Under the pieces are notes generated by a model. That model was not told where the DNA came from. It searched no databases and saw only the letters and a program-made list of their open reading frames with translations. This document shows positions 2 to 63,909 of a DNA stretch of 64,000 nucleotides, in pieces. The stretch is from an uncultured Marvinbryantia sp. Lineage in GTDB: Bacteria; Bacillota; Clostridia; Lachnospirales; Lachnospiraceae. The stretch covers positions 65,788-129,787 of the forward strand of contig CAKRVB010000003.1 of assembly GCA_934408725.1 (NCBI GenBank). Direction: 5' to 3'. Both the position numbers and the translations under genes were made by a program. Position 1 is the first letter of the stretch. Each line of letters starts with the position of its first letter.

Positions 2-1198
2 TCCGGTATTGCTTTTGCCAGAGAACGTACCCTGTATCCAGATCTCGATCTGTATTACAGCGCCGGTGACCGCCTTCATCCTAATGTGGCCGGAAGCTAC
101 TTATCCGCCTGCTGTATCTACTCTACTTTATTTGGCAGATCCGCAGAAGGCATCAACTATTATCCGGCTATAAACGGCAAGACATCTGCACAGTCTCAGC
201 AGATTGAGCAGAATATGCAGTCCCTGGCTGCTGATGTGGCGCTTCGTGGAAACCTGAATATTTCCCAAAAGGCCACTTTCAAAGATCCAGGTTATACCAT
301 CAACAGAGGGAAAACTCTGCAGCTTGCCTTTTCCAAAAACGGTTACCACGGAATCGCTTATCAGTCCAGCAATCCATCCTGCGTAACCGTCAGCCAAAGC
401 GGTCTGGTTTCTGCAAAAGAATATGGCAGTGCCGTCATTACCGCAACGTTAAATAACGGCACCACCGCAACCTGTGACATCATTGTCTGCTCCGGAAAGT
501 TTACGCTTACTGTTGGCGATAAATATACCTTCAAATTTAATAACAACTTTAGCTGGCGTTCCTCAAATGGATCCGTTGCCTATGTAAGCGGCAACCAGAT
601 CTACGCCGCAGGTTCCGGCAGTGCCACTCTGGTAGGCACCAATTCCAATGGTACTACCGTTACTCTTCAGGTAACAGTAAAAGGAACTTCATCCACAAAG
701 AGCAAGGTGAAGCTGAATTCCAAATCTTTGTTCCTGGCAGTCGGCAAGAAGGCAAATCTGAAGACTCAGGTTCTCTCCGGATCGAATTTCTCCGGTCTGA
801 CCTATAAGTCCAGCAACAAATCAGTGGCCACTGTTACAAAGAAAGGTATCGTAACAGCGAAACGTCCGGGAAAGGTTAAAATCACCATCACCCCGAAAAA
901 GGGGAAAAAGATGACACTTACCATCACCTGCGGCACTCAGGTCAAAAAACTTGCATTCTCTAATGTGAAGTCCGGTGCAAAACTAAAAGTAGGTAAGAGC
1001 AAAACCTTAAAAGTCAAATTCACTCCATCCAAGGCCAGCATCAAAAAGCTGAGCTGGAAGAGCAGCAATACTAAGGTTCTCACCGTAAGCAAAAACGGTA
1101 AAATCAAAGCGAAAAAACCTGGTACTGCCAAGATCACTGCCACCGCTACTGATGGATCAAAGAAAAAAGTTACCGTAAAGATTAAAGTAGTGAAATAA
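2..1198 (+). CDS. SGNH-hydrolase C-terminus with Big_2 repeats (5' end outside window)
   Basis: The frame is open from the window edge, so this is the C-terminal 398 residues of a larger surface protein. A GTG at 86 is only an internal codon. Visible residues 19-40 hold GDRLHPN followed by GSYLSACCIYSTLFG, which matches the last block (Asp-x-x-His) of SGNH/DUF4886-type esterases. The rest is a string of about four Big_2 Ig-like repeats with the usual pattern of SSN..VATVT..G.VTAK.PG.A.ITA (roughly residues 85-160, 165-225, 235-315 and 318-398). The C-terminus is very lysine-rich and there is no LPXTG motif, so attachment could be through charge to wall polymers. The product is probably exported; its signal peptide would lie outside the window. 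It converges on the dlt-like operon, and a link to that operon is possible but unproven. Confidence 0.8.
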   Translation, partial: SGIAFARERTLYPDLDLYYSAGDRLHPNVAGSYLSACCIYSTLFGRSAEGINYYPAINGKTSAQSQQIEQNMQSLAADVALRGNLNISQKATFKDPGYTINRGKTLQLAFSKNGYHGIAYQSSNPSCVTVSQSGLVSAKEYGSAVITATLNNGTTATCDIIVCSGKFTLTVGDKYTFKFNNNFSWRSSNGSVAYVSGNQIYAAGSGSATLVGTNSNGTTVTLQVTVKGTSSTKSKVKLNSKSLFLAVGKKANLKTQVLSGSNFSGLTYKSSNKSVATVTKKGIVTAKRPGKVKITITPKKGKKMTLTITCGTQVKKLAFSNVKSGAKLKVGKSKTLKVKFTPSKASIKKLSWKSSNTKVLTVSKNGKIKAKKPGTAKITATATDGSKKKVTVKIKVVK

Positions 1199-1277: not shown

Positions 1278-3317
1278 TTACTCTACCCAGTTGATCACAT
1301 TTGTCTTCTTCGCCAGTTCTTTTCCCGCCTTTGCCGGATATCCCATCACTACCGTAGACCATACAATATGTGTATCTGGGATACCGAATCCCTGCAGCAT
1401 TTCCCGAATTTCCGGTTCATCACAGATCGTCATCAATGCATTGATCCACGCAGAACCGATACCATAAGAATTCGCTGCCAGCATCATATTCTGTACTGCA
1501 CAGGAGCTGTCCTGAATACCATCTGCATTTCTCCGGTCATTAGATACCAGTACGATAGTCTTCGGATTATTAAATCCATAGAAGTGCACCTTCTTTTCTT
1601 TGGACACTTTTTCCACAATCTGACGGAACGCATGGATCTTTTCCGCATTCTGGATCACGGTAAACTTCCAGGTCTGCATATTATGTCCGCTTGGTGCATA
1701 ATAACCACACTGCAGGATCGTCTCCAGAACAGCTTTTGGCACCTGTTCCTCTGTAAAGTCACGAATACTTCTTCTGGATAAGATATTCTGCACCACTTCG
1801 TTGACCATCTGCTGATCTCCGTTCTCTTCCCAGCGTCTGTACAGAGCCTTGCGATCCAGCTTCTTCATACGATTTCTCGGAAGCTCCCGGATATTCAGAT
1901 AACGCTGTGGCAGCTTATAGCGCTCCATACGCTCTGCCAGGAACTTTGTCAGTTCCTCTTCATTTACCGCAGAGCCTTCCGGCACGATATAGAGCACCGG
2001 CACTTTTCCAAGAATGCCATCCGGATCATCCACCCCGATGCAGGCACACTCCCGGATCTCCTCAAATTCCTGTGCAATATTTTCCACTTCCACTGGAGAT
2101 ACCTTTTCTCCACCTACATTGATGATATCATCCGCACGCCCCAGCATATAGATATAGCCATCTTCGTCCAGATATACCATATCATTGGTATACAGCCAGC
2201 CATCCACCAGCGTCTGTGCATTTGCCTCCGGCATCTGGTAATATCCCATCATCTGCATTTTTCCGCGAAGTACCATACGGCCCGCTGTATCAATATCTCT
2301 GGCCACGATCTCATTTCCTTCCGTGTCCACAGTCTTCACCTCGACGCCTTCGATTGGCTTGCCAAGTGCGGTCAGCTTATCTGGATTCTCTGATACAATC
2401 AGGAAAATGGCTCCACCAGTCTCTGTCGAACCCCAGGTATTGACAATCTTCGTATTTGGCAGCATATTCACCAGCTTCTTCTTCATATCATAGCTAAGCG
2501 ACCCTGCTCCGAACTCCATATAACGTAAGTTTCCCATAATCCCGGCAAACTTATCCTGCATCTGACGATAAACCAGCTCGATGGAAGCAGGTACACTGAC
2601 CAGTCCCGTACAATGAAAGCCTTCGATATTCTTCTCCAGCTCCTGTGCAAAGGTAAATCCATTCTGCAAAATCAAAGTCGCACCAATATAGAAAATCGTT
2701 CTGGTGACACGCATTCCTACAGAATGATTCAGAGGCAGTGGAAGCAGTACCACATCATCTGCCTGCATTCCTACTCCATGCCAGGTATTGTGTGTACTGG
2801 CATAAATATTCGCCACACTCAGCATCGTTCCCTTTGGCTTTCCAGTGGTTCCTGTAGTAAACAAAATCTCTGACAATTCCTCATCCGAGCGTTCCTGATA
2901 AGCCACCGTCAGTTCCTCTTCCGGGATCTCCAGACAATCTGCATATACCCCTTTCAGAGATGCCACACGAATCTTCTCATGCAGCACCTTGCCGTCTGCC
3001 AGCAGGATCTTCGGCTGTGCATACTCATAGACATCCAGAATATTCTCCAGCTTGGCTGACTTATCAATCGGAATGGACACTCCGCCAAGGTACTGCACTG
3101 CCAGATATCCCACGATATACTCCGGCTTCGACACTGCTGAGATCATGATAAAATCTCCCTTTTCAATGCCGAACTCCTGCTGCAGCTTCTGTGCAAAAGC
3201 TCGCACCTGTATGCCCAGTTCCCCATATGTTACACGAATCTTCTTAAATCCAATGGCCAGCTTATCCGGCGTTTCTTTTGCATGCGCCAGCACCGCCTGT
3301 ACAATTGTCTGATACAT
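1278..3317 (-). CDS. Adenylating ligase-nitroreductase fusion of a dlt-like operon
   Basis: This 679-residue protein has an ANL-superfamily adenylation domain at about 1-495. Visible motifs are ILFTTGTTGKPKG (A3), NTWGSTETGG (A5), YTNDMVYLDEDGYIYMLGR then DDIINVGGEKVSP (A7-A8), and PRNRMKKLDRKAL with the C-terminal lysine (A10). A nitroreductase domain follows at about 505-679: SRRSIRDF, APSGHNMQTW and GIGSAWIN are FMN-binding signatures. The start is the ATG at 3317, preceded by GGGAGG. It sits downstream of a carrier-protein gene and an MBOAT gene, like DltA, C and B. However, the A4 region reads LPLNHSVG and lacks the FDxS aspartate of amino-acid-activating domains, so the substrate is more likely a carboxylic or hydroxy acid than D-alanine. 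The nitroreductase may oxidise or reduce the carrier-bound group; that is inference. Confidence 0.85.
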   Translation of the reverse strand: MYQTIVQAVLAHAKETPDKLAIGFKKIRVTYGELGIQVRAFAQKLQQEFGIEKGDFIMISAVSKPEYIVGYLAVQYLGGVSIPIDKSAKLENILDVYEYAQPKILLADGKVLHEKIRVASLKGVYADCLEIPEEELTVAYQERSDEELSEILFTTGTTGKPKGTMLSVANIYASTHNTWHGVGMQADDVVLLPLPLNHSVGMRVTRTIFYIGATLILQNGFTFAQELEKNIEGFHCTGLVSVPASIELVYRQMQDKFAGIMGNLRYMEFGAGSLSYDMKKKLVNMLPNTKIVNTWGSTETGGAIFLIVSENPDKLTALGKPIEGVEVKTVDTEGNEIVARDIDTAGRMVLRGKMQMMGYYQMPEANAQTLVDGWLYTNDMVYLDEDGYIYMLGRADDIINVGGEKVSPVEVENIAQEFEEIRECACIGVDDPDGILGKVPVLYIVPEGSAVNEEELTKFLAERMERYKLPQRYLNIRELPRNRMKKLDRKALYRRWEENGDQQMVNEVVQNILSRRSIRDFTEEQVPKAVLETILQCGYYAPSGHNMQTWKFTVIQNAEKIHAFRQIVEKVSKEKKVHFYGFNNPKTIVLVSNDRRNADGIQDSSCAVQNMMLAANSYGIGSAWINALMTICDEPEIREMLQGFGIPDTHIVWSTVVMGYPAKAGKELAKKTNVINWVE

Positions 3318-3358
3318 GATTTATCCTCCCACACACTTTATTTCCATATATGACAAAA

Positions 3359-3405
3359 GCACCCCGGCTTCAGGAAAACATATCGTTTCCAGTCTTCCGG
3401 AGTGC
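3359..3405 (-). terminator. Hairpin between carrier and ligase genes (possible attenuator)
   Basis: On the minus strand, GCACTCCGG pairs with CCGGGGTGC (one G-T pair) around a nested GGAAAC/GTTTTCC stem, and TTTTGTC follows. It lies in the 110-bp gap inside the operon, so it may be a weak terminator, attenuator or mRNA-processing site that lowers ligase relative to carrier protein. Confidence 0.5.
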
Positions 3406-3427
3406 CCGTTCTTCATTCGCTCTTCTT

Positions 3428-3655
3428 CTAGTCCATCAAGCGCTCTACCATAGAAGCCATACCATCTACAGAATTAAAATTTTCTTCAATGATCTCTTCA
3501 TATGGAATCGTAATACCGAATTCCATGGTCAATGCTGCAATGATACCAGTCAGTGTCAGAGAATCCAGGATTCCGTCATCTACCAGTTCATCAGAAGATA
3601 AGAAATCAATCTCCGGGAATTCCCCTTCTAATACTTCTAAAACTTTATCTCTCAT
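3428..3655 (-). CDS. Acyl/D-alanyl carrier protein (DltC-like)
   Basis: This is a 75-residue acidic four-helix carrier protein. The phosphopantetheine attachment serine is Ser32 in GILDSLTLTG, the DSL motif. The start is the ATG at 3655, preceded by AAGGAG at 9 nt; the longer upstream frame has no such support and its translation looks random. Its length matches DltC and ACPs (75-80 residues). A good promoter sits 60-90 bp upstream (3714-3742). It should carry the group activated by the ligase at 1278-3317 and hand it to the MBOAT protein at 3850-5466. Sequence alone does not say whether the cargo is an amino acid or another acid. Confidence 0.88.
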   Translation of the reverse strand: MRDKVLEVLEGEFPEIDFLSSDELVDDGILDSLTLTGIIAALTMEFGITIPYEEIIEENFNSVDGMASMVERLMD

Positions 3656-3713
3656 TATCGAAATCTCCTTTTTATAAAGGTTCCTGCCTTTCAGAACCCA
3701 TACTGATGGAATC

Positions 3714-3742
3714 ATCATACCATATTTGCGCCAGTTCGCCAA
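3714..3742 (-). promoter_or_regulatory. Promoter for carrier and ligase genes
   Basis: On the minus strand, TTGGCG (3737-3742), a 17-bp spacer and TATGAT (3714-3719) form a sigma-A type promoter. A TG one base before the -10 box makes it extended. The transcript would start near 3707, leaving a leader of about 50 nt. Confidence 0.65.
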
Positions 3743-3849
3743 GGTATTTTTGTGAGCCCTCCCTGTCCCAAAAGCCAGATTGGGGCAGATACCCACCCCC
3801 TGACCACGAACTCACCTCTTTTCTTTTTTCCCAACTTATTTTTTACTTA

Positions 3850-5466
3850 TTAGTACTGCATATATGTGAACGCCACATTACTGAATCCAGCTCCCCATAT
3901 TCCAAAGATAATTACGGAAAAGAATGCCACGTAATAGATCAGCCAGCGTACTACAATATTATTTCTGGCAATCATTTCCCGTACAGAGCCTCGCTCCTGC
4001 AGCATGCTGACACACCACAGTACAAAGATTCCCAACATGGCCATAAAGAAGTTCTTCTCGTTCAGTCCATAATTAAATAACGTTCCGTCAAATAAGATCC
4101 AGATGTCGAACTGCTTGCAGATCTGTTTCAGAATATCCCAGGTAGTCTGCAAATGACCAGGAATGGTGATCAATCTGGCAAACGTAAAGATGATGAAAGT
4201 ACGGATCATCTGCACCACACCCCAGCTTCTGGCTTCCGTATTGATACGAAGCAGCCTGGTCAGCTTCTTGATCTCTGGTGCGAATACGATCGACAGGATC
4301 ATCAACAGCCCCCAGTAAATGCCCCATGCCAGATAATTATACCCAGTTCCATGCCACAGACCGGTCAGGATCCAGACGATCATCGTCGGGATAATGGTCA
4401 TTACATTCTTGCTGGCTCTTGGTCCTACATGCGTTTTGAACCATTTTGCAATATTCATCATACGTGGTGAGATCGCCAATGGCATATAGATATAATCCTT
4501 AAACCATGCCCCCAGTGTAATATGCCATCTGCGCCAGAACTCTGCCGCACTTTTTGAGAAAAATGGATGGTTAAAGTTCTTTTCCAGGTCAATACCAAGG
4601 ATCTGGCAAAATCCTCCCGCCATATCCATGCATCCGGAGAAATCACAATACAGCTGAATACTTCCAAAGATTGCCGCAATCACAAAGATCAGACTGCCGC
4701 TTTCCCCATATACATTTCCAAATACCGAATTTACAAAAATCGACAAACGATCTGCGATTACCAGCTTTTTGAAATAGCCCCAAAGTGCCAGCTGCACGCC
4801 AAAGCACACTCTTTCATAGTCAAAAACATGTCCTTCGTTGATCTGCTCACCCAGCTTCTTATGTCTGGCGATTGGTCCCTGGAGAATCTTCGGGAAGAAG
4901 AGTACCCAGGTCAGGAACTTCAGGAAGTTCTTCTCTGCCTTATCTTTTCTCCAGTACACATCTGCCAGATAACCTACCATAGAAAACGTATAATAAGAAA
5001 TACCCAGTGGCACAATCACTGTCATCCAGAATGGTCTGGCTGAAGTGTCCAGTTCTCCTGCTGCATTTAGTACATCATAACCCAGAAGACTGCCCAGACT
5101 GTTCATAATCTTACTTCCAGCCTTGGTATAGATCAGCACCAGAATCACCAGCACAGACACCAGCATATGTACACGCTTTGCCCGCTTCTTGGCCCGGAGC
5201 TTGCGCTCCTTCTTCTCTGCCGGAGTCATACCCTCCCGCTTCAGATCCTCATCCTGTTTCACATAGATCGTATCAATCCTTCTGGCAGCCAGATACACCA
5301 TCAGGCTGGTCACCAGAACCACTGGCAGCGCCTGCCAGCCCCAGGACAGATAAAATACCACACTGGAAAGCAGCAGCACAAACCACCGCGCTTTCAAAGG
5401 GAAAATAAAATACAATAAACATGTTACAAATAAAAACACAAAAAATATACCTGATAAAAATGTCAT
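3850..5466 (-). CDS. MBOAT membrane O-acyltransferase (DltB-like)
   Basis: This polytopic membrane protein of 538 residues has the MBOAT/DltB fold. The conserved WRRWHITLG..FKDYIYMPL stretch lies in the middle, and the invariant catalytic histidine is His372 in LTGLWHGTGYNY. The start is taken at the ATG at 5466 (MTFLSG), which has AAAGGA about 9 nt upstream. An ATG at 5505 in the same frame has no ribosome binding site and abuts the upstream stop codon. The family moves acyl groups from a carrier protein or coenzyme A across the membrane onto wall polymers (DltB) or exopolysaccharides (AlgI, PatA). Next to a carrier protein and a ligase it is most simply the transfer step of a dlt-like surface acylation pathway. 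No DltD lies in the operon. Confidence 0.9.
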   Translation of the reverse strand: MTFLSGIFFVFLFVTCLLYFIFPLKARWFVLLLSSVVFYLSWGWQALPVVLVTSLMVYLAARRIDTIYVKQDEDLKREGMTPAEKKERKLRAKKRAKRVHMLVSVLVILVLIYTKAGSKIMNSLGSLLGYDVLNAAGELDTSARPFWMTVIVPLGISYYTFSMVGYLADVYWRKDKAEKNFLKFLTWVLFFPKILQGPIARHKKLGEQINEGHVFDYERVCFGVQLALWGYFKKLVIADRLSIFVNSVFGNVYGESGSLIFVIAAIFGSIQLYCDFSGCMDMAGGFCQILGIDLEKNFNHPFFSKSAAEFWRRWHITLGAWFKDYIYMPLAISPRMMNIAKWFKTHVGPRASKNVMTIIPTMIVWILTGLWHGTGYNYLAWGIYWGLLMILSIVFAPEIKKLTRLLRINTEARSWGVVQMIRTFIIFTFARLITIPGHLQTTWDILKQICKQFDIWILFDGTLFNYGLNEKNFFMAMLGIFVLWCVSMLQERGSVREMIARNNIVVRWLIYYVAFFSVIIFGIWGAGFSNVAFTYMQY

Positions 5467-5505
5467 GTTATAAAATCCTTTGCTATTTATTGATATTGCA
5501 CTCAT

Positions 5506-6945
5506 CTATTCACTATAATACAGCTGCCGCGGACTCTTTGGTTTATCCGGTAAGCTCATTTTCAGCTGTCCCGCTTCTATCAGCGGCAATACATGCTTCT
5601 GAATCGCATAAGTTACCGAAGTAAGTCCCAGATATTCGCAGATCTCTTTTCTGGTTCTCGGTGTCCTGCAAAACAGAATTAAATCCATAGCCTCTTCTGT
5701 ATGAATAGCCTCTGTCTTTTCTTTTGTTTTATGATATAGCCGCACGATAAAACTTCCCCGTTCATCCACGAATTCCGGTTGCTCCAGCTGATAGCGGTCC
5801 ATCTCCATCCGTATCGTTGGAATTCCGGAATATCGATTTTCGGTAATGTGCATGACCTCCAGCGCAGAAGCCAGTACCGGATTCCTGGTATCTGGCTGCA
5901 CTTTTCCTAATTGATCTACTCGCATTCTGCCATAAATTCCACCTGGATTGCGGATCTCCAGCCTGTCCTGAAACATAATCAGCTGTATCGGCATTCCCTC
6001 AGTATGAATACTATAATCTCGATGCACCAACGCATTGAGCACGGCCTCTCTTATGGCTGTAACCGGATAATCGGTTCGATCTTCTCTCTGTCCGGTTTTT
6101 TCATTAATAATCGTTTTGGTACGCATATTCCGTTTCACAAATTGCAGCGCACCACTTAGCATATCCTGGATATTTCCCTCTATTCTCTGATTATCCAGAA
6201 AACGTTCTCCTGCCACTCCGGTTTCCCCCAGTTTCGTTCCTGGAACGACAATTGCCGTGATACATAACTGTGGAAAATAAGCCTGTGGATACGGGCTGAA
6301 CAGTAAGGTTGTACTCAATGTTATTTCGCTGTTTCGTTTTATGCTTACCAGTTCATAAATCATCTCATCCTTCATGGATGACAGATGAGGCTTTCCTTGC
6401 TTCAAAAGCGTAATATACTGATTCAGACTTTCCTGATCCAGTGCGGCCATCGTTACTCGTGGGACCTCTCTGATATCATCCTGATATTTCTTTCGAAAGG
6501 CTTCATAACTGTACACTTCATATTCCGTCATCGGTTCGTCACTGTCTCCGATGCGGGTATAAGAACCCTTCAGCCGCCCTCTTCCCTGATAATAACATGG
6601 CCGCTCCACCAGATCCATCCCCGGTATCTCCGCTGAAACAAACTTCTTCCCGTCTTTTTCCACTACCGTAATCAACGGCCTGACAACCGGAGTCATCTGC
6701 AGACACTGCTCATTAATCTTCTTCTGAATATCCTGCGCATCATACACACCAGTCTCTTTATAATTCTTTTCTTCATCAATCCCAAACACAATCATTCCGC
6801 CATCATCCTGATTCGAAAAGCTGGACAAAGTATCATACAGACGTTTGGGGCATCCATATTCCGCTGATTTCAATGCCAGTGTCTGTGTTTCACACCTCAT
6901 TTTCTGAATTGTGAGTAATGTTTCATATAATTCTTCCGAAGTCAT
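5506..6945 (-). CDS. AlbA_2 / HATPase_c_4 ATP-binding regulator (Schlafen-like)
   Basis: This 479-residue protein has an N-terminal AlbA_2 (Schlafen-like, DNA- or RNA-binding) domain at about 14-130, with the GGMIVFGID core. A GHKL-type HATPase_c_4 domain follows at about 295-375, with the AVLNALVHRDYS N-box and EIRNPGGIYG. A winged helix lies at about 430-475 (RKEICEYLGLTS). Proteins with this layout (COG2865) are treated as transcriptional regulators, but their ligands are mostly unknown. The start ATG at 6945 follows GCAGGAGGAACTTAA. Its upstream region is packed with GGAACT half-sites and palindromes, one touching the -35 box, which suggests self-regulation. It may also act on the three similar promoters elsewhere in the window (see findings). 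Confidence 0.8.
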   Translation of the reverse strand: MTSEELYETLLTIQKMRCETQTLALKSAEYGCPKRLYDTLSSFSNQDDGGMIVFGIDEEKNYKETGVYDAQDIQKKINEQCLQMTPVVRPLITVVEKDGKKFVSAEIPGMDLVERPCYYQGRGRLKGSYTRIGDSDEPMTEYEVYSYEAFRKKYQDDIREVPRVTMAALDQESLNQYITLLKQGKPHLSSMKDEMIYELVSIKRNSEITLSTTLLFSPYPQAYFPQLCITAIVVPGTKLGETGVAGERFLDNQRIEGNIQDMLSGALQFVKRNMRTKTIINEKTGQREDRTDYPVTAIREAVLNALVHRDYSIHTEGMPIQLIMFQDRLEIRNPGGIYGRMRVDQLGKVQPDTRNPVLASALEVMHITENRYSGIPTIRMEMDRYQLEQPEFVDERGSFIVRLYHKTKEKTEAIHTEEAMDLILFCRTPRTRKEICEYLGLTSVTYAIQKHVLPLIEAGQLKMSLPDKPKSPRQLYYSE

Positions 6946-6971
6946 TTAAGTTCCTCCTGCTTGCATTTTAG

Positions 6972-7000
6972 ATACTAACACTTTTTTTAAGTTTATGCAA
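6972..7000 (-). promoter_or_regulatory. Promoter of the AlbA_2/HATPase gene
   Basis: On the minus strand, TTGCAT (6995-7000), a 17-bp spacer and TAGTAT (6972-6977) form the promoter. The motif AAGTTCC touches the -35 box on its upstream side, the same layout as in the three dispersed elements at 10.55, 29.74 and 32.79 kb. Confidence 0.65.
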
Positions 7001-7086
7001 GGAACTTAAATATTATTACAGAAACTAAAAAGGAACTCAAATACTTGCAGATTATTTGAGTTCCTTGCGAGTTACTATTTAGTTTC
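6999..7086. repeat. Nested inverted repeats with AAGGAACT(C/T)AAAT half-sites
   Basis: AAGGAACTTAAAT occurs at 6999-7011 and AAGGAACTCAAAT at 7030-7042, with its exact inverse at 7054-7066 (13-bp arms, 11-nt loop). Outer arms GAAACTAAA (7021-7029) and TTTAGTTTC (7078-7086) enclose it. The position upstream of the regulator promoter suggests an operator. As RNA on the minus strand it could also fold as a hairpin at the end of the preceding transcript. Confidence 0.7.
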
Positions 7087-7120
7087 TATTCGTCACGTCC
7101 TGGTACAGTTTACAATTAAT

Positions 7121-7164
7121 ATTTTACGAGTGCTAATCGAGTTTTTTTCGAGTTCCACTCGATT
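7121..7164. repeat. 44-bp direct repeat, copy 1
   Basis: This copy matches 7247-7290 with one mismatch seen by eye. Each copy contains an inverted pair AATCGAG ... CTCGATT and one AGTTCC motif. A third CTCGATT follows at 7168-7175. It is a putative protein-binding repeat or hairpin in the 343-bp gap between genes. Confidence 0.75.
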
Positions 7165-7246
7165 CTCCACTCGATTATTTCACCTCACAATACCCATAAT
7201 GTTGGAACTTCCAACAACAGATAAGCATAATTATGCTCAAATATCT

Positions 7247-7290
7247 ATTTTACGAGTGCTAATCGAGTCTTTTTCGAGTTCCACTCGATT
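7247..7290. repeat. 44-bp direct repeat, copy 2
   Basis: This is the second copy of the repeat at 7121-7164. It overlaps the stop codon of the chimeric gene (7289-7291). Between the two copies lies a small palindrome, GTTGGAACTTCCAAC (7201-7215), again centred on GGAACT. Confidence 0.75.
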
Positions 7291-8893
7291 ATTTAAGTTC
7301 ATATTTGGTTGCACGACCATTTCCTGTTTTGATGATAATATCTTCATTCATCATCTTGCCAAGCGTTGTTCTGGCCTGTTGCTTAGTAAATCCACATAAT
7401 TCTCTGACTGTACTATTATTAATAACGCTATTTCGTTTAAGATATTCTGCTATCATATCCTTTGCCTTAATATACTGCACTACTCTATCACGTGTATAAT
7501 CAACATCTGATTTTATGGCTTCATACACTCTTGCTGTAAGCATATATTTTTTTCCAGAAAGTTCTATTAATCCATAATTCATCAAATCCAAACAGCATTT
7601 CTTTGCTTCATTATTGTCTATCTGCGCAATTCTCTGTGCATCTGCTAATTTTATTCTTCTGTTTTCAGCAACGTACCTTAGTATCATTAATTGAGCCAGT
7701 GAAAACGTAATTTGTCTTGAATCCTGCTCTTTGACTACGAATTTTACAAAATCAGGATCTTCCATTGCACTGCTCAACGTAAGCTGCACAGCATCATTGA
7801 ACACTCTATAGGACGGATATGGCTTTCCCATCGATACCATTTCCCTAAAAATAATGTCTACTCCCTGCCCGGTTCGCTGTACATACCGCAAATTCTGTAA
7901 TGTTTCGGTAATAAGCTTATTTCTTGGAACGGACGGATGTGTAATGATATTATCTGCTGTAATACCATCCAAAAATCCGCCAGGATTTTCAATCATAATT
8001 TTATCTGGGTAATGCTTTACATACACTGCCCCCTGTTGCCTATAATCCCTATGTGAAAGTGCATTCAATAATGCCTCCTGAAATACTTTTTCAGAATACT
8101 CTGATACTTCTAACCTAAATAAGCCAATTTGCACAGACTCAATTTTATTATCATTTTGTATTTTTTCTGTAAGTCTGTCCAGAACTGTAGTAATTGGTTG
8201 TTTCATATCAATTCGAGCATTATATTCTTCAAGATTGTCCTTTCCATAATGTAAATAAATTACCTCCGCCTGTGGAAGCAGTCTCTGGATAGATGCATCC
8301 TTTCCAACAAATAACAATCCGGCTATCGTCAATTTAATCTGTCCGTCTTCATCAACTATCAGCTTTAAATCCCTTAAAAATGCCATATCCTCCATATCAG
8401 GAAGCGTAGACGCCGGATCACGAAGTCTCAACTTTTCTTTTAATGCGTATACAACCATACGATTAATATCATTCACCGAGCTCTCCGCTATAATCTGTGA
8501 TGAAAAATCATTCGTATTTGCTATTGTATACACATGTGCCATTTCATCAGAATAAAACGGTTTAGAGTTCTTCCCTAATCTTTTAAGGCATCTTCCATCG
8601 GCAGTTGTATATGTCTTTCCATCTCTTTCAACAGAAATAGCAATCCCATAGGTCCAAATATCATTCCGGTCTTCATTACGGAGACGTTCATCATACCGTT
8701 TTTCCCGTATCTGATTCATCGCTTTTTCACAGGCTTTTTCCAATCCATCGTAAGTCTGTGCATACTTTAATTCGATGATGATCCCGGCATTCGGATCTTC
8801 AGGTTCAATCAGGATATCTACATAATAAAAGTTCTCTTTTCGTAACTTTTCAAAGTTATCCATACCAACTGGCAGTTTTAACATTGCATCCAT
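7289..8893 (-). pseudogene. Chimera: PD-(D/E)XK fragment joined to an AlbA_2/HATPase protein
   Basis: The 534-residue frame is open but looks recombined. Residues 1 to about 88 match the C-terminal nuclease part of DUF1703 AAA-ATPase proteins (YYVDILIEP, GIIIELKYA, then QIREKRYDERL and TYGIAI). From about residue 90 (GKTYTTADGRCLKRLGKNS) it continues as the second half of an AlbA_2 domain, followed by HATPase_c_4 (ALLNALSHRDYRQQ, IMIENPGGFLDG) and winged helices. The first half of AlbA_2 is therefore replaced. Its neighbours are an intact HATPase regulator (5506-6945) and an intact DUF1703 gene (8916-10511), so both parents are local families. The start ATG at 8893 has only a weak ribosome binding site. 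It may be a scar of deletion or a new functional fusion; the intact frame argues that it is young or selected. Confidence 0.65.
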
Positions 8894-8915
8894 TCCTGTA
8901 ACCTGCCTTTCCTGC

Positions 8916-10511: not shown

Positions 10512-10550
10512 GCCGCCGCCATCCTCTCTGCTCATATTTATCAGTTTCCA

Positions 10551-34692: not shown

Positions 34693-36321
34693 TTATTCCA
34701 TTGCTCGCCATTGATTAATACCTGTTTCATACTGTGTTTGAACCAGTTCACTTCTTCTTGATGCTTGCGGGTTAACATTGGCAAACGTATCAAAATATAC
34801 ATTACTTAAAATTTCTCCATATTTTTTATTATATACAACAATGTTGAATCCCCGTCCACCTTGAATTACATTCTGGCCATTAAGCGAAATACTGGCCGCT
34901 ATGCCTGACAAATATCCTCCACTCACTATAGAATAATTAATATTATTTTCTAGGGTTCCTTCTAGAGACACTTTTCCTTTTTTCATCATTTCTTCTACAT
35001 GATTATTATCTATTACCGCTGCAAAACTATATCTAAATTTATCTTTCAAATCACTCTCTATTCCCAATTCAGACATTTGTTTTATTTCTTCATCTAACAG
35101 ACTTTCTGTAGCATCATCACTTATAGAAATAAAAATCGCATTATCTTTCGTATCAATCTTCTTTAATTCATTTAGATAGTTTCCAAAGCTTGTTGCTGAC
35201 AATAACGCAATCTTAGTTTCCATTATTCCCAATGCTTCTTCATAACGCTGCTTTTCATTCTCAAAATAATCATATTGGGGATTACCACGTTTATCTGTGA
35301 TTTGATAATTGCTTACCAAATATTCACCAAGATAATCTGTCCATTTCTTTGCGCCCATAATATTATGGTGATTTCCATCTGTTGAGTCAATGTTCCAGTC
35401 TATTCCTACTTCATCTTCGTACTGACTGATGTCAATAAATGGTAGATTATATTCTTTTGCAATCTCATCTATCATATTATAATCAGCATTTGATAAATAA
35501 GTATTTACTCCTGCTCCACGCAATAGAACTAAATCTACACCTTTTTCCTTGCATAGCTCTATTATCTTTAACAGATATTTTTTATTAAATTCCACCATTC
35601 TATTTGCAGAAACAGTTGAATCATAACTGGTATTAATGCTATTCCGTAGATCTGTTAATCCGTCCGCAATATCAAAGCTCATAAGATTACCATTCATAAC
35701 CATTTTTCCACTTTTTCGAATGAAATTTGGCTTATTAACGTTTTCCCAATTGGAATGATTATTATATAATGACGAAAAGTAACTTATTGTATCTATGCTC
35801 GATTTTAGAGTTTTTGCGACCTGCACAGCTTCATACTTGGTCTTGTAATCCTTCATTCCATCAACTGACAAATGCAAATAATAGTATTCATCGCTATCTA
35901 ATCTATTTTTTAGCATTTCAATAGAATAAAATAGTGCATTAATATCATAAAAAACAACTTGTGGAGACTGATCTTCCAAAGCATCTTTTAATGTATAATA
36001 TGATAAATAAACTGGCTGCTCCGGTTCACCAAGCGTTACCGATGCTATACCATATCTTGAATACAATTCTTCAGAACTAACATTCATAACGGCTATACTG
36101 GTTCCGCAAAAAATAACATCATAAGAATCAGGATTATCATGTACATATTTTAATCCACTGGCATCCCACTGTTCATTTTTAGGTCTTTTTAAAATATATA
36201 AGGCACCTTGCAGTATAATCAATATTCCAGCAATAAATACAATACACTTAAAAAAATTAATCTTTTTTCTCTTTTCTTTCAATACACCTTCTACAAGCTC
36301 CTTATTATAAATTTGAAACAA
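34693..36321 (-). CDS. Membrane-anchored SGNH-like hydrolase/acyltransferase (DltD-like)
   Basis: The protein has up to 542 residues with one N-terminal membrane segment (about 24-44) and an extracytoplasmic SGNH-type domain. VIFCGTSIAVMN carries the block I serine and DGNHHNIMGAKKW the Asp-x-x-His block. Related anchored proteins (DltD, AlgX-like, PatB) handle acyl groups on surface polymers. A C-terminal region of about 170 residues is not recognised. The frame begins at a TTG (36321) inside the glf gene without a good ribosome binding site; a TTG at 36282, nearer the membrane segment, is also possible. The DNA is AT-rich like its upstream neighbours. Confidence 0.65.
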   Translation of the reverse strand: MFQIYNKELVEGVLKEKRKKINFFKCIVFIAGILIILQGALYILKRPKNEQWDASGLKYVHDNPDSYDVIFCGTSIAVMNVSSEELYSRYGIASVTLGEPEQPVYLSYYTLKDALEDQSPQVVFYDINALFYSIEMLKNRLDSDEYYYLHLSVDGMKDYKTKYEAVQVAKTLKSSIDTISYFSSLYNNHSNWENVNKPNFIRKSGKMVMNGNLMSFDIADGLTDLRNSINTSYDSTVSANRMVEFNKKYLLKIIELCKEKGVDLVLLRGAGVNTYLSNADYNMIDEIAKEYNLPFIDISQYEDEVGIDWNIDSTDGNHHNIMGAKKWTDYLGEYLVSNYQITDKRGNPQYDYFENEKQRYEEALGIMETKIALLSATSFGNYLNELKKIDTKDNAIFISISDDATESLLDEEIKQMSELGIESDLKDKFRYSFAAVIDNNHVEEMMKKGKVSLEGTLENNINYSIVSGGYLSGIAASISLNGQNVIQGGRGFNIVVYNKKYGEILSNVYFDTFANVNPQASRRSELVQTQYETGINQWRAME

Positions 36322-50056: not shown

Positions 50057-50067
50057 CTCTTTCTCCG

Positions 50068-50361
50068 TTCTTGGCATCGGATTCTTCACTTTTTCTTCTT
50101 TCCGCTCCCCGTCACTCTGTCTTTCGCCTCTCCTCGACAGCGGATTCACAACTTACTTCTCTTTCCGCCGCCCGCCACTCTGTCTTTCGCCTCTCCTCGA
50201 CAGCGGATTCACAACTTGCTTCTCTTTCCGCCGCCCGTCACTCTATCTTTCGCCTCTCCTCGACAGCGGATTCACAACTTGCTTCTCTTTCCGCTGCCTG
50301 GCCCACCAGCTTTCACATCTCCTCGACAGCGGATTTCTCACTTATTTCTCTTTCCGCTGCC
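50068..50361. repeat. 63-bp tandem repeat (minisatellite), about 4.5 units
   Basis: The marker CGGATT recurs at 50078, 50141, 50204, 50267 and 50330, exactly 63 bp apart. Middle units are nearly identical and the end units diverged. The first unit overlaps the 5' end of the JetD reading frame, which reads NPMPRTEKE there and NPLSRRGERQ in the next unit. The unit is 21 codons long, so copy changes keep frame, but one unit has a TAA. Confidence 0.9.
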
Positions 50362-50410
50362 ACAGTGCCCCACGATACCATTCAGCTCCCGGCCAGTCAT
50401 CATCCATTCC

Positions 50411-51760: not shown

Positions 51761-51771
51761 TTCATAATCGG

Positions 51772-52629: not shown

Positions 52630-52635
52630 GAGATT

Positions 52636-52694
52636 ATTTCCCATCTGAAATACATGTTATGATACTGTCAATCATAGCATTTCAGATGGGAAAT
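52636..52694. promoter_or_regulatory. 16-bp perfect inverted repeat at the Wadjet operon start
   Basis: ATTTCCCATCTGAAAT (52636-52651) and ATTTCAGATGGGAAAT (52679-52694) are exact inverses. The 27-nt loop contains a further TATGAT/ATCATA pair and, on the minus strand, a consensus TTGACA (52666-52671). With a weak TCAGAT box 17 bp on, this could be a promoter under an operator for the jet genes. It may instead be a hairpin ending the rml transcript; no T-tract is present. Confidence 0.6.
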
Positions 52695-52706: not shown

Positions 52707-53315
52707 CTAGAACTTAAACGTATCCTTGATTCCCAGCCATTTCTGGTCTTTATCGCTGAGATTCAGTGCCGTACCATCTTCCATCACGTATCCCTCTGCG
52801 GATGCGCTTCCCTGATAGCTGCCCTTTACCTGTGGCCACTGGATGCCGATCTCCGGATCGTTCCATGCCATACCGCCTTCATCCCCTGGATGATAGAAGT
52901 CGGTACATTTGTAGCAGAATTCTGCCACATCGGATAATACCAGGAATCCGTGTGCAAATCCCTGTGGAATATAGAACTGCTTCTTGTTTTCTTCTGTCAG
53001 TTCGATACCATAGTATTTTCCGTAAGTCTCAGAATCACTTCTCAGGTCTACAGCCACGTCATAGACGGAGCCTTTGATCACGCGAACCAGCTTACCCTGT
53101 GGGAATTCCTTCTGAAAATGCAGTCCACGCAATACACCTTTGGTGGAGCAGGACTGGTTATCCTGTACGAATACCATGTCTAGTCCTGCTTCTTTCATAT
53201 CGTTTTCATTGTAAGTCTCCATAAAGTATCCACGGGAATCACCGTGCACGGTCGGTTCAATCACGCACAGTCCCTGAATGCCGCCTACATTTTTCTCTAC
53301 TTTAATCTGTCCCAT
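52707..53315 (-). CDS. rmlC: dTDP-4-dehydrorhamnose 3,5-epimerase
   Basis: The 202-residue cupin enzyme has DSRGYFMETYN, VLRGLHFQKE with the active-site histidine, and FYIPQGFAHGF, all RmlC hallmarks. It epimerises dTDP-4-keto-6-deoxyglucose at C3 and C5. It is the last gene of rmlABC, starting 3 bp after rmlB. RmlD, needed to finish dTDP-rhamnose, is not in the window. Confidence 0.93.
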   Translation of the reverse strand: MGQIKVEKNVGGIQGLCVIEPTVHGDSRGYFMETYNENDMKEAGLDMVFVQDNQSCSTKGVLRGLHFQKEFPQGKLVRVIKGSVYDVAVDLRSDSETYGKYYGIELTEENKKQFYIPQGFAHGFLVLSDVAEFCYKCTDFYHPGDEGGMAWNDPEIGIQWPQVKGSYQGSASAEGYVMEDGTALNLSDKDQKWLGIKDTFKF

Positions 53316-53317
53316 TT

Positions 53318-54337
53318 CTATCTGTCTCCGTACATTTTTTCATAGTAGTTCTGGTATTCCCCTGAAATAATGGTCTCCCACCATTCTCTGTTTTCCAGAT
53401 ACCACTTAATAGTCTTCTTGATACCGTCTGCGAATTTTGTTTCTGGCAGCCAGCCCAGTTCATTGTGGATCTTCGTTGGATCAATCGCATAACGCATATC
53501 GTGTCCCTTACGGTCTGTTACATGGGTAATCAGGCTTTCCGGTTTGCCCAGTTCCTTGCAGATCAGTTTCACAATATCAATATTTTTCATTTCGTTATGA
53601 CCGCCAATGTTGTAGACTTCTCCCACGCGGCCTTTATGAATAATCAGGTCAATAGCCTTGCAGTGGTCTTCAACATACAGCCAGTCACGGACATTTAATC
53701 CTTCTCCGTATACTGGAAGTGGCTTGTCATTTAATGCATTGGCAATCATCAGCGGAATCAGTTTCTCTGGAAAATGGTATGGGCCGTAGTTATTGGAGCA
53801 GCGGCTGATGGTTACAGGCAGTCCATAGGTTCTGTGATATGCCAGTACCAGAAGGTCAGCGCCAGCCTTGGATGAGCTGTACGGGCTGCTGGTGTGGATC
53901 GGAGTCTCTTCGGTAAAGAACAGATCCGGGCGATCCAGAGGCAGATCTCCGTATACTTCATCCGTAGATACCTGATGATAACGGGTGATGCCATATTTTC
54001 TGCAGGCATCCATCAGCACTGCGGTACCTTTGATGTTGGTATCCAGGAATACTTCCGGATTCTCAATAGAACGGTCTACGTGGCTCTCTGCTGCGAAGTT
54101 TACCACGATGTCCGGATGTTCTTCTTCAAATAATTTATAAACAGCTTCTCTGTCTGTGATGCTTTCCTTTACAAAACGGAAATTTGGATTGTCCATTACT
54201 GGTGCCAGTGTGGACAGGTTACCTGCATAGGTCAGGCAGTCCAGACACACGATACGGTAATCCGGGTATTTCTTTAACATGTGAAAAATAAAGTTGCTTC
54301 CGATAAATCCGGCTCCGCCGGTAACGATAATATTCAT
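53318..54337 (-). CDS. rmlB: dTDP-glucose 4,6-dehydratase
   Basis: This 339-residue short-chain dehydrogenase has VTGGAGFIGSNF (NAD site), VSTDEVYGDL (catalytic Asp-Glu) and YSSSKAGAD (YxxxK), the RmlB set. It makes dTDP-4-keto-6-deoxyglucose. That product feeds RmlC and probably also the FdtA-like enzyme at 29275, so this operon serves both a rhamnose and an amino-sugar branch. Confidence 0.95.
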   Translation of the reverse strand: MNIIVTGGAGFIGSNFIFHMLKKYPDYRIVCLDCLTYAGNLSTLAPVMDNPNFRFVKESITDREAVYKLFEEEHPDIVVNFAAESHVDRSIENPEVFLDTNIKGTAVLMDACRKYGITRYHQVSTDEVYGDLPLDRPDLFFTEETPIHTSSPYSSSKAGADLLVLAYHRTYGLPVTISRCSNNYGPYHFPEKLIPLMIANALNDKPLPVYGEGLNVRDWLYVEDHCKAIDLIIHKGRVGEVYNIGGHNEMKNIDIVKLICKELGKPESLITHVTDRKGHDMRYAIDPTKIHNELGWLPETKFADGIKKTIKWYLENREWWETIISGEYQNYYEKMYGDR

Positions 54338-54351
54338 GATAATAAGTCCTC

Positions 54352-55248
54352 CTAATACAACTGCTCTCTATATTTTCCATCCAGCACGTCCTTCAGATAC
54401 TGTCCGTACTGATTTTTCTTTACGATCTCGTAAGTCTTCATCACATCTTCTTTGCTGATCCATCCATTGAGATATGCAATCTCCTCCAGGCAGGCAATCT
54501 TGCGGTGCTGATGAGTCTCTACGGTTTTTACAAAGTTGGTAGCATCCACCAGGCTCTCATGTGTTCCGGTATCCAGCCAGGTGAATCCCTGTCCCAGAAG
54601 TTCCACATTCAAGTCACCATTTTCCAGATAGATGCGGTTCAGATCAGTGATCTCCAGCTCTCCTCTGGCGCTTGGCTTCAGGTTCTTTGCATACTCTACC
54701 ACACGATTATCATAGAAATACAGACCTGTTACACAGTAGTTGCTCTTTGGCTTAGCCGGTTTTTCTTCAATAGAGATCGCTTTTCCGCTATGGTCGAATT
54801 CCACGATTCCGAAACGCTCCGGATCGTCTACATAATAGCCAAATACAGTAGCGCCTTTGCCATTCTCTGCATTTTCCACTGCGGAAGTCAGTCTCTTCTT
54901 CAGGCCATGGCCTGCGAAAATATTATCTCCCAGTACCATAGCTACCGTATCATCACCGATAAAATCAGCTCCGATAATAAAGGCCTGTGCCAGTCCATCC
55001 GGGCTTGGTTGTACTGCATAAGACAGATTCACACCAAACTGATGTCCGTCACCCAGCAGTTCCTGAAAACGCGGTGTATCCTGTGGGGTAGAAATAATCA
55101 AAATCTCTCGAATTCCTGCACTCATTAACACTGACATTGGATAATAAATCATTGGCTTGTCATAGATCGGCAGTAACTGCTTGGAAGTTACCATGGTCAG
55201 CGGATATAAACGGGTTCCGGATCCTCCTGCTAAAATAATTCCCTTCAT
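54352..55248 (-). CDS. rmlA: Glucose-1-phosphate thymidylyltransferase
   Basis: The 298-residue protein has [38 protein letters not shown] and [16 protein letters not shown], the full RmlA signature. It makes dTDP-glucose from dTTP and glucose-1-phosphate. It is the first gene of the rmlABC operon. The promoter upstream has a 19-bp spacer with a palindrome, facing a divergent MerR-family gene. Confidence 0.95.
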
Positions 55249-56732: not shown

Positions 56733-58640
56733 TTATTTTCCAAGCTCTTTCCGTGCTGCTGCCAGCGCCGCATCAATGACCTTATCCATGTCATAGTACT
56801 TATACTGTCCCAGTCTGCCGCCGAAAATCACGTTTTCTTCTTTTTCAGCCAGCTCCCGGTATGCTTCGTACAGCTTGCTGTTCTTCTCATCGTTTACCGG
56901 ATAATATGGTTCAATGCCTGGCTTCCACTCCGTAGAATATTCCCTGGAAATGATGGTATAATCTTTTGGCTCCTCAGCCTCCAGCTCTGGTTCAAAGTGC
57001 TTGTGCTCAATGATTCTGGTATATGGCACTTCTTTTGCCGTGTAGTTCACCACTGCATTTCCCTGATAGCTTGCGTCTTCGACCCTCTTTGTCTCGAATC
57101 GCACGGTACGGTATTCCAGATGGCCCAGCCTGTAATCAAAGTATTCATCAATCATACCAGTAAACACAATCTTTTTAAAATTATCATGTTCCCTGCGATA
57201 TTCAAAAAAGTCTGTTTCGGTCATCACATCTACATTCTCCAGAAGCTTCTCGATAATCTGCGTGTAACCGCCCTTCGGAATACCCTGATATACATCATTA
57301 AAATAATTGTTATTATAAGTAAAACGCAATGGCAGACGCTTAATGATAAAAGCCGGAAGATCTTTGCAGTCTCTTCCCCACTGCTTCTCAGTGTAGCCCT
57401 TAATCAGCTTCTCATAGACATCCCGTCCCACCAGGGACAATGCCTGTTCTTCCAGATTCTGTGGATCTGTAATCTGCAGGTCTGCGATCTGCTCTGCAAT
57501 CTTTGCCTTTGCTTCTGCCGGTGTCCTGATCCCCCACAGCTTACTGAAGGTATTCATGTTAAACGGCAAATTATACAGCTCATCTCCATAGACGGCCACC
57601 GGCGAATTAATATAGTTGTTAAACTCTGCATATTTATTGATATACTTCCATACCTCTTCATTACTGGTATGGAAAATATGGGCTCCATACTTGTGTACAT
57701 GGATACCATCCACTTCCTCCGTATAGATATTGCCACCGATATGATCCCGCTTTTCCAGCACCAGACAGCGCTTGCCGGCATTTTCCATTTCTCTGGCAAA
57801 TACCGCCCCATACAGACCCGAGCCAACAACCAGGTAATCATAGATCTTTCCGTTCTTCTCGAACTTCTTCGTTCTTTTCTTCTCCTTGCGTTCTCTATCC
57901 AGACGATCCTGTTCTTCCTGATAGGCATCGCAGACCTCTGTCACATCGCCACTCATCCGGGTAATACCTTTGTCCAGCCAGATCGCATGGTCACAGACCT
58001 CCCGTACTGTCTTGATATTATGAGACACAAACAGAAGCGTTGTACCGCCCTCCAACAGTTCAGCCATACGTTCCCGGCATTTTTTACGGAAATTCATATC
58101 TCCTACTTCCAGTGCCTCATCTACAATAAGTACATCCGGACAGTCTACCGTAGCTACTGCAAATCCCAGTCTGGCCTTCATACCGGAAGAAAAGTTCTTC
58201 ACAGGTGAATCCAGGAATTTTTTGATATTGGCAAATTCTACGATTTCATCAAAATGTTCATCCATAAACTCCTTGGAATGTCCCAGCAGAGTTCCGTTCA
58301 TATAGATATTCTCTCTGGCCGTCAGTTCCCCGTCAAATCCGGCTCCCAGCTCGATCAGGGGAGCAATCCTGCCCTTTACCTTAATCGTGCCCTTATAAGG
58401 CTTCAGAATGCCTGCTATCGCCTTCAGAAAGGTAGACTTACCAGATCCATTGGTGCCGATCAATCCCCAGGCTTCTCCTTTTTTTACCTTCAGAGATACA
58501 TCGTCAAGGGCCAGAAATTCCTGAAACATCAGCTGATGCTTCACCAGCTTGATGGCATATTCTTTTAAATTATTAATTTTCTCACTGGATAAGTTAAACC
58601 GGATCGTTACGTGATCCGCATCCACTACATACTTACTCAT
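56733..58640 (-). CDS. ABC exporter ATPase fused to UDP-galactopyranose mutase (Wzt-Glf)
   Basis: The 635-residue protein has an ABC ATPase at 1 to about 245: GTNGSGKST (Walker A), NFSSGMKARLGF (signature), DVLIVDEALEVGD (Walker B). A charged linker (DRERKEKKRTKKFEKNGK) follows, then a complete Glf at about 265-635 (YLVVGSGLYGAVFAREM, HIGGNIYTEE, HKYGAHIFHTSNEEVW, GYTEKQWGRD). In long Wzt proteins this C-terminal position holds the glycan-binding domain; here it is the enzyme that makes UDP-galactofuranose. The permease gene is 23 bp upstream. The frame shows no sign of being a sequencing artefact. Coupling of precursor supply and export of a galactofuranose polymer is a reasonable inference. 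Confidence 0.9.
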   Translation of the reverse strand: MSKYVVDADHVTIRFNLSSEKINNLKEYAIKLVKHQLMFQEFLALDDVSLKVKKGEAWGLIGTNGSGKSTFLKAIAGILKPYKGTIKVKGRIAPLIELGAGFDGELTARENIYMNGTLLGHSKEFMDEHFDEIVEFANIKKFLDSPVKNFSSGMKARLGFAVATVDCPDVLIVDEALEVGDMNFRKKCRERMAELLEGGTTLLFVSHNIKTVREVCDHAIWLDKGITRMSGDVTEVCDAYQEEQDRLDRERKEKKRTKKFEKNGKIYDYLVVGSGLYGAVFAREMENAGKRCLVLEKRDHIGGNIYTEEVDGIHVHKYGAHIFHTSNEEVWKYINKYAEFNNYINSPVAVYGDELYNLPFNMNTFSKLWGIRTPAEAKAKIAEQIADLQITDPQNLEEQALSLVGRDVYEKLIKGYTEKQWGRDCKDLPAFIIKRLPLRFTYNNNYFNDVYQGIPKGGYTQIIEKLLENVDVMTETDFFEYRREHDNFKKIVFTGMIDEYFDYRLGHLEYRTVRFETKRVEDASYQGNAVVNYTAKEVPYTRIIEHKHFEPELEAEEPKDYTIISREYSTEWKPGIEPYYPVNDEKNSKLYEAYRELAEKEENVIFGGRLGQYKYYDMDKVIDAALAAARKELGK

Positions 58641-58663
58641 GATTTTCTCCTGCTCTTTGCATG

Positions 58664-59452
58664 TTAGATATATAAGATAAATTTATCCTTCATTCTCTGG
58701 AATACCGTTACTCCGACGATCAGCATAAGAAATGCAATGATCCATCCACCGAAGAAAATTCTCGGTCCCGGAAGGCGGCAGCCGTAGATCAGATCACGGA
58801 ACTGTGCCACATAATAATACAGTGGATTCAGCCCCTTCACCAGTAGCTGCAGGGTCTTCGGCAGACGCTCCAGTGGATAGATGATCGGGGTCAGATACAG
58901 CCATGCTGTTGTAACCGCATTATAAATGTATGTAATATCACGGAAAAATACATTCAGGGTGGCCAGTAAGAATCCAAGTCCACAGCAAAAAATGTAGATC
59001 TGCAGTACCACAATTGGAAACAGCAGGAATGTCCATGAGAATCTTGCTCCGGTAACCAGCATAACGATAACCAGGGCTCCCATGGATAATACAGTATCTA
59101 CCATGCAGCTGGTGATCTTTGCCAGTGTAAAAATATACTTTGGTACATAAGTCTTTTTCAGCAATGCCGCATTGCCGGTAATGGATTTCATAGCACTGTT
59201 GGTACTGACTTTCAGAAAATCATACAGGATTCGACCTGTCAGCAGGTAAACCGGATAATTGTCGATATTCTTATTGAACATCGTAGAAAATACTATCGTC
59301 AATACCAGCATAATCAGAAGCGGATTCAGTACGCTCCACACATAACCAAGAAAACTTCTTCTGTACTTCAGCTTCAGGTCCCGGCTTACCAGTTCCCGAA
59401 CCAGATCTTTATACTGATATAACACATTGATTCTATACCGAAAGGTACTCAT
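58664..59452 (-). CDS. ABC exporter permease (Wzm/TagG-like)
   Basis: This 262-residue ABC-2 permease with six membrane segments has LVSRDLKLKYRRSFLGYVW and LTPIIYPLERLP, the Wzm/TagG signature. It has the usual length, unlike the longer permease at 40703-41677. It pairs with the ATPase-Glf fusion downstream. The ATG at 59452 follows an AGAGAGG site. Confidence 0.9.
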   Translation of the reverse strand: MSTFRYRINVLYQYKDLVRELVSRDLKLKYRRSFLGYVWSVLNPLLIMLVLTIVFSTMFNKNIDNYPVYLLTGRILYDFLKVSTNSAMKSITGNAALLKKTYVPKYIFTLAKITSCMVDTVLSMGALVIVMLVTGARFSWTFLLFPIVVLQIYIFCCGLGFLLATLNVFFRDITYIYNAVTTAWLYLTPIIYPLERLPKTLQLLVKGLNPLYYYVAQFRDLIYGCRLPGPRIFFGGWIIAFLMLIVGVTVFQRMKDKFILYI

Positions 59453-63821: not shown

Positions 63822-63836
63822 ATATAAAATTAAAAA

Positions 63837-63909
<73 letters not shown>

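Follow-up and report, generated by a model that had tools for sequence, protein, structure and literature searches.

Candidate carrier-dependent surface acylation operon whose acid ligase is fused to a nitroreductase domain

What does a flavin mononucleotide (FMN) nitroreductase domain do at the end of an acid-activating ligase, in an operon that resembles the one for D-alanylation of teichoic acids? The question is raised by positions 1278-5466 of a 64,000-nucleotide stretch of contig CAKRVB010000003.1 (referred to here as the window), from an uncultured Marvinbryantia species whose relatives are Lachnospiraceae. The operon lies on the minus strand and encodes, in this order, an MBOAT acyltransferase, a carrier protein and a ligase fused to a nitroreductase (NTR) domain. 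It is moderately probable that the operon carries out a carrier-dependent surface acylation in which the acyl group, while on the carrier, is oxidised or reduced by the fused NTR domain before it is passed to a surface polysaccharide. What can be read from the sequence is the parts with their motifs, a neighbourhood that is conserved and how the fusion arose and was lost; the catalytic steps, the acid and the acceptor proposed below are inferred. An original prediction had posited a redox-modified acyl decoration reached by a D-alanylation-like route; of this, the carrier-dependent MBOAT pathway within a surface-polysaccharide cluster and the conserved fusion are supported, a redox step on the tethered group and a glycan acceptor are predicted, and the tie to D-alanine is not supported. 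The components are as follows.

1278-3317, minus strand: open reading frame of the ligase-NTR fusion, 679 amino acids in one uninterrupted frame
1833..3317, minus strand: AMP-forming acyl ligase half, residues 1-495 (PF00501, E 4.4e-60, residues 12-360; PF13193, E 9.3e-12, residues 410-486)
1278..1832, minus strand: FMN nitroreductase (NTR) half, residues 496-679 (PF00881, E 1.9e-26, residues 512-660)
3428..3655, minus strand: discrete carrier protein, 75 amino acids (PF00550, E 8.3e-05; DSL motif)
3560-3562, minus strand: codon of the predicted phosphopantetheine serine of the carrier (in DSL)
3850..5466, minus strand: DltB-related MBOAT acyltransferase (PF03062; full reading frame 3850-5505)
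3853..3870, minus strand: C-terminal acyl-shuttle motif FTYMQY (FxYxx[F/Y]), the final six residues of the MBOAT
34693..36321, minus strand: membrane-anchored SGNH/DltD-like protein, the likely fourth component
2..1198, plus strand: convergent protein cut by the window edge, with an SGNH-like tail and Big_2 repeats (Big_2 match), a possible accessory

The operon and its fused ligase

Pfam matches confirm that MBOAT, carrier and adenylating ligase occur together, as predicted. Their order, MBOAT-carrier-ligase, is not that of dlt operons, for which it had been taken. The start of the MBOAT was placed at the ATG at 5466 (residue 14 of the full frame), where most homologues begin aligning. The single frame of the ligase contains the complete NTR domain that had been claimed for it, with the RRS, PSGHN and GIGSAW motifs all found. 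Membership of this domain in the FMN nitroreductase superfamily is indicated by its PF00881 match and by retention of the shared core residues, and its closest solved structure is 3ek3 (122 bits).

The fusion is conserved among relatives. Homologues at E <= 0.001 number at least 2643 among 7998 candidates, and the best 120 (57-99% identity) all have both NTR and AMP-binding Pfam domains. An alignment of 82 rows was assembled from the window, 56 of these 120 homologues and 25 sequences from related loci (L numbers; genomes are given as G numbers); 73 of the rows are fused, so that the fusion recurs in 72 aligned homologues besides the window, at 40-87% identity. Mean column conservation across the 73 fused rows is 0.687 in the ligase half and in the NTR half alike, and the linker between the halves is similar among the 10 of these rows listed. 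Distribution was sampled within Bacillota. In the family of the relative G001, matching fused frames of 681-718 residues occur in 12 of 397 sampled genomes and the ligase alone in 8 of 397 (E <= 1e-80 for both), and a query with the NTR domain recovers the same 12 fused frames. A smaller, overlapping sample gave matches in 11 of 299 genomes at E <= 1e-100, eight of them full-length, and 2 of 13 genomes of the genus of G001 have a match, one of the two being unfused. The commensal Lactonifactor longoviformis (L004) is among the carriers of the operon. The fusion was found in 1 of 299 genomes sampled across the phylum, this being the centre genome itself, and in 1 of 197 from the family of a Gemmiger relative, again the relative itself.

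The history of the fusion was examined with a maximum-likelihood tree built from 25 fused and 10 unfused ligase domains (35 in all). The fused label requires three changes on this tree, versus a mean of 8.9 when labels are shuffled, and none of 500 shuffles was as low. This pattern is read as one gain of the NTR domain followed by two losses, one in L008 and L031 and the other in L034, the last of which is a long branch.

Proposed loading and transfer of the acyl group

The ligase half would adenylate a carboxylic acid that is not an alpha-amino acid, forming an acyl-AMP, and load it on the discrete carrier. In amino-acid-activating adenylation (A) domains, the A4 aspartate binds the amino group of the substrate. 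Alignment to module 2 of LgrA places a His-Ser pair of the ligase at the Phe-Asp of the amino-acid enzyme, which includes the A4 aspartate, and serine at this position was seen in two alignments. Since a serine replaces the aspartate that marks amino-acid-activating domains, the ligase does not resemble a D-alanine ligase, and the D-alanine link of the original prediction is not borne out. Nor was a known D-alanine ligase family seen among the best 25 of the 113 NCBIfam matches of the protein, which are mostly acyl-CoA ligases. Residues H197 and R202 (numbered on a 678-residue row without the start methionine; add 1) do not vary in any of the 22 ligase rows, whether fused or not. All 73 fused rows have R205 and E267, as do three of eight unfused rows, and the other five have Tyr and Gln. 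The fused group and the deep sister group without the fusion thus have different sequences around the pocket.

Dicarboxylate-type transporters (CitMHS/Na_sulph_symp) adjoin unfused ligase operons at L035, L069 and L071, a hint as to the acid used in those operons. A bolder guess, drawn from these three transporters in sister operons and from the invariant arginine next to the ligase pocket, is that the ligase loads a dicarboxylate, such as an unsaturated one that would be reduced on the carrier.

Carrier matches were found at 24 loci, and the DS[LMI] motif is present in 21 of the 21 carriers examined, a set to which those of L003, L035 and L073 do not belong. The best solved-structure matches of the carrier include carrier proteins and DltC. 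DltB is the sole solved MBOAT matched by the sequence of the window MBOAT (8jem/6bug, 86 bits), and the TIGR04091 LTA_dltB match, at 135.6 bits, does not reach the cut-off of 375. About 105 residues extend beyond the match to the DltB model, a tail with two hydrophobic stretches. The tail ends in FxYxx[F/Y], as do all 23 MBOATs examined (16 from fused and 7 from unfused operons, leaving out the cut MBOAT of L030), the final letter being F or Y. A WHG triplet that includes the likely catalytic histidine, a predicted assignment, is found in 21 of the 23. The MBOAT would take the acyl group from the carrier, and its conserved histidine would pass the group to the tyrosine of its own C-terminal motif on the outside.

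The next step would fall to the SGNH/DltD-like protein, which may move the acyl group from the MBOAT tyrosine to its own serine and then esterify the surface polysaccharide. This protein has an SGNH fold with the block I serine and the block V Asp-x-x-His present. S75 and H318 are invariant in 16 of 16 rows; D315 is invariant in a set of 12 rows and falls below 90% in the set of 16. Structural alignments to DltD cover 239-247 residues at 9-11% identity with Z scores of 11.3-12.1, a range shared by many GDSL enzymes, and DltD gives the longest alignment among the matches listed. At 19 loci with the fusion, an MBOAT is present in 17, a discrete carrier in 17 and an SGNH-like protein in 15 (E <= 1e-2), and L027 has a DHHW/AlgX-type SGNH protein in place of the SGNH-like one. 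The SGNH/DltD-like partner and the shuttle motif strengthen the predicted carrier-dependent acylation, as do homologues of the fusion in polyketide synthase/nonribosomal peptide synthetase (PKS/NRPS) and N-acyltransferase settings, which are described below.

Proteins of SGNH type (DUF4886 or GDSL) with Big_2 repeats recur beside these operons, at the following positions.

Window 2-1198
L001:12059-13876
L035:12561-14162
L065:14164-15327
L066:2437-4332

The L001 gene, which has DUF4886/GDSL and Big_2 matches, directly follows the fusion and is 43% identical to window 2..1198, a protein of which the Big_2 part alone is matched by Pfam. These neighbours might act on the same polymer, as an esterase or as a second transferase. 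A decayed copy of the whole operon is seen at L105:9238-11093, where NTR, ligase, carrier, MBOAT and SGNH protein survive as short pieces, in order, within 2 kb.

The operon is surrounded by a polysaccharide cluster with glycosyltransferases, a flippase, dTDP-rhamnose-type genes, UDP-galactopyranose mutase and ABC-2 exporters, and the acceptor in the window is probably the rhamnose/galactofuranose polymer of this cluster. Two groups of its genes, assigned by Pfam, are the following.

52707..55248, minus strand: dTDP-rhamnose-type genes (3,5-epimerase, epimerase/dehydratase, nucleotidyl transferase)
56733..59452, minus strand: ABC-2 type exporter pair, with the ATPase fused to UDP-galactopyranose mutase

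In the second group a single frame of 635 amino acids at 56733-58640 on the minus strand unites the exporter ATPase (ABC_tran) with the mutase (GLF).

Proposed role of the nitroreductase domain

The fused FMN domain would act on the acyl group on the carrier and alter its redox state. Lachnospiraceae are anaerobes, and for this reason, together with the general use of NAD(P)H in the NTR superfamily, a reduction driven by NAD(P)H is a likelier guess than an oxidation. The available text of PMC10404671 describes superfamily members as generally using NAD(P)H and as typically homodimeric with FMN at the interface, and the available parts of PMC12479983 and PMC10404671 report enzymes of the NTR family that can use O2 to desaturate acyl tyrosines.

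Three residues distinguish the fused NTR domains from their standalone relatives: H544 is found in 68 of 73 fused rows versus none of 24 standalone relatives, and G580 and Q601 are each found in 73 of 73 versus none of 24. H544 sits in the PSGHN loop, which presumably contacts the substrate in related enzymes. Conserved residues specific to the group suggest a dedicated substrate. Fusions at two further loci, listed here, occur in other acyl settings.

L032:3327-19901: PKS/NRPS cluster with radical SAM/B12 enzymes and the ligase-NTR fusion inside
L009:1466-5815: ligase-NTR fusion and carrier beside an Antibiotic_NAT-like gene and DUF4910/DUF2172

The L032 fusion (41% identity) lies between the ketosynthase (KS)-carrier and adenylation-thiolation (A-T) genes of its cluster. 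That of L009 (48% identity) is followed by a carrier within a polysaccharide cluster without an MBOAT, and upstream of it are DUF4910 and a gene resembling aminoglycoside 3-N-acetyltransferases. Since both fusions occur together with acyl chemistry on carriers, an action on acids that are destined for a carrier, or already attached to one, is favoured.

Several observations weigh against a redox step on the carrier or against the pathway as drawn. The NTR domain is dispensable, having been lost at least twice (in L008 and L031, and in L034), and a deep sister group lacks it. For all 7 standalone NTR relatives inspected the neighbourhood is unrelated, so what the NTR domain reduces cannot be told from its fold by itself. 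Three NTR proteins of 188-193 amino acids with 64-67% identity have their start in the linker and are possible split copies of the fusion; other NTR proteins of about this length begin within AMP-binding_C and resemble fragments. The exact WHG triplet is missing from the MBOATs of L005 and L034, the SGNH-like gene of the window is 29 kb from the operon and so outside its immediate bounds (34693-36321), and within the stretches examined there is no carrier at L064 and no SGNH gene at L006.

Split-gene (Rosetta stone) evidence was looked for in several sets of genomes. Five genomes with unfused ligases have no close separate NTR: the best matches in four of them are 29-30% identical, and the fifth, G256, has no match at E <= 1e-10. 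The eight ligase-only genomes of the family of G001 are all absent from the 43 genomes in which an NTR match reaches E <= 1e-30. In 30 of 397 genomes of that family, the sole NTR matches are standalone proteins of 38-48% identity. At L006:12063-12629 the ligase-NTR fusion is immediately followed by another nitroreductase, a standalone one of about 40% identity.

It is possible, though rather unlikely, that the acylation system operates as described and the NTR domain spares the tethered group, acting on the free acid, and so producing what the ligase then uses, or riding along as a separate reductase. The nearest non-fused relatives, which are free-standing reductases in unrelated neighbourhoods, fit this explanation, as does the existence of the system without NTR in the sister group and after the two later losses. 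However, most of a divergent clade has retained the fusion, including in PKS/NRPS and N-acetyltransferase settings, and the group-specific residues suggest a dedicated substrate. An improbable alternative is that the NTR domain is mainly structural, its usual homodimer pairing two ligases with little or no chemistry; the homodimers typical of the superfamily, with FMN at their interface (PMC10404671, as far as its available text goes), are consistent with such a role, but the core residues common to the standalone enzymes are kept and H544 is retained in the PSGHN loop of nearly all fused rows. That the operon is a genuine D-alanylation system with an unusual ligase is very improbable given the serine, preceded by histidine, at the amino-acid aspartate position, an MBOAT that has a shuttle motif of its own and a score well short of the DltB cut-off, and the lack of any D-alanine ligase family among the best 25 of the 113 ligase matches. 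An assembly or gene-calling error, for which nothing speaks apart from C-terminal fragments among the homologue matches, has a negligible chance of explaining the frame because the fusion recurs in the 72 aligned homologues and in 12 of 397 genomes of the family of G001, in many separate assemblies and with a similar linker among the 10 rows listed; the domains are not split in all close relatives, a finding that would by the original prediction have refuted the fusion.

Surroundings of the operon and comparison with known systems

Further features of the window include two hairpins. A strong hairpin followed by UUUU lies between the carrier and ligase genes at 3358-3406 on the minus strand (110-nucleotide stretch, z -3.7) and is a possible terminator or attenuator setting the level of the ligase. 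The other, at 1206-1234, is symmetric and terminator-like, with 11 pairs, and separates the convergent ligase-NTR and SGNH/Big_2 genes. Upstream of the MBOAT (5506-10535, minus strand) are two genes with a RecG-C-type HATPase_c_4 domain and one AAA-ATPase_like/PDDEXK_9 gene.

5506-6945, minus strand: HATPase_c_4 gene with AlbA_2
7289-8893, minus strand: HATPase_c_4 gene with PDDEXK_9 in one frame
8916-10535, minus strand: AAA-ATPase_like/PDDEXK_9 gene

Remnants of a type II Wadjet defence system occupy 48503-52644 on the minus strand. JetD2 is matched, the JetC2 match covers only model positions 926-1362 of 1365 and the JetA2 match only 1-281 of 496, and the partial JetC2 and JetA2 adjoin as if after a large internal deletion. 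Three tRNA genes lie at the right edge (63749-64000, minus strand), the last one cut by the end of the window.

Carrier-dependent acylation with a redox step would have several consequences. Surface sugars would receive acyl groups chemically tuned in the cytoplasm, beyond acetyl or D-alanyl, and a new flavin reaction on carrier-bound acids would be put to the test. Lachnospiraceae are common in the gut, and the modification could bear on how hosts read these bacterial surfaces. Tentatively, and with somewhat less confidence than is placed in the redox step, the operon may represent a third class of bacterial envelope acylation, carrier-fed as in Dlt and self-shuttling as in Pat, in which a flavin domain adjusts how oxidised the acyl group is before it is exported.

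The original prediction knew of no described system of this make-up, and searches of the open-access literature likewise found no description of a carrier, self-shuttling MBOAT, SGNH protein and NTR-fused ligase together, no paper treating a nitroreductase together with an MBOAT, and none that brings a nitroreductase together with an adenylation domain and a carrier protein in a fusion. According to the available text of a 2025 study (PMC12148441), the Dlt arrangement has a carrier and a microprotein, DltX, that bears the FxYxxF acyl-shuttle motif, whereas Pat and other MBOAT-SGNH arrangements have the motif on the MBOAT, no carrier and an acyl-CoA donor. The present operon looks like a Dlt/Pat hybrid because its carrier-fed MBOATs end in the shuttle motif known from carrier-less PatA-type systems. 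The motif is also found in the MBOATs of unfused operons, so the hybrid make-up is common to the sister operons without NTR. If correct, this would break the split between carrier-fed systems with DltX and CoA-fed systems with a fused shuttle, as the 2025 model is set out in the same text (PMC12148441).

With the Dlt pathway (DltA, DltB, DltC and DltD with DltX), which D-alanylates teichoic acids, the operon shares a carrier-fed MBOAT and an SGNH partner. It differs in gene order, in a ligase that lacks the amino-acid aspartate and has an NTR domain, and in an MBOAT that bears its own shuttle motif instead of relying on DltX. PatA/PatB-type acetylation likewise has an MBOAT with a C-terminal motif of FxYxxF type and an SGNH protein as a separate partner, but uses acyl-CoA without a carrier, while the operon has a carrier and the ligase for it (PMC12148441, available text). 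Desaturation of acylated amino acids is a known activity of NTR domains, one of which stands beside a ThiF domain in OxzB (PMC10404671, available text). OxzB and TyzC thus resemble the fusion in joining an ATP-using domain with an NTR-family domain that alters the redox state of an acyl amino acid; ThiF, however, is not an AMP-binding ligase, and the available parts of PMC10404671 and PMC12479983 mention neither a carrier nor an MBOAT nor a surface polymer.

Redox tailoring of carrier-bound groups in NRPS/PKS pathways, for which NRPS oxidase domains are a precedent, also couples a redox domain to a carrier-loading enzyme, and the L032 fusion lies in such a cluster. The product of the operon would differ in being exported by the MBOAT and not built into a peptide. 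Every part belongs to a known family, and it is the combination that would be new.

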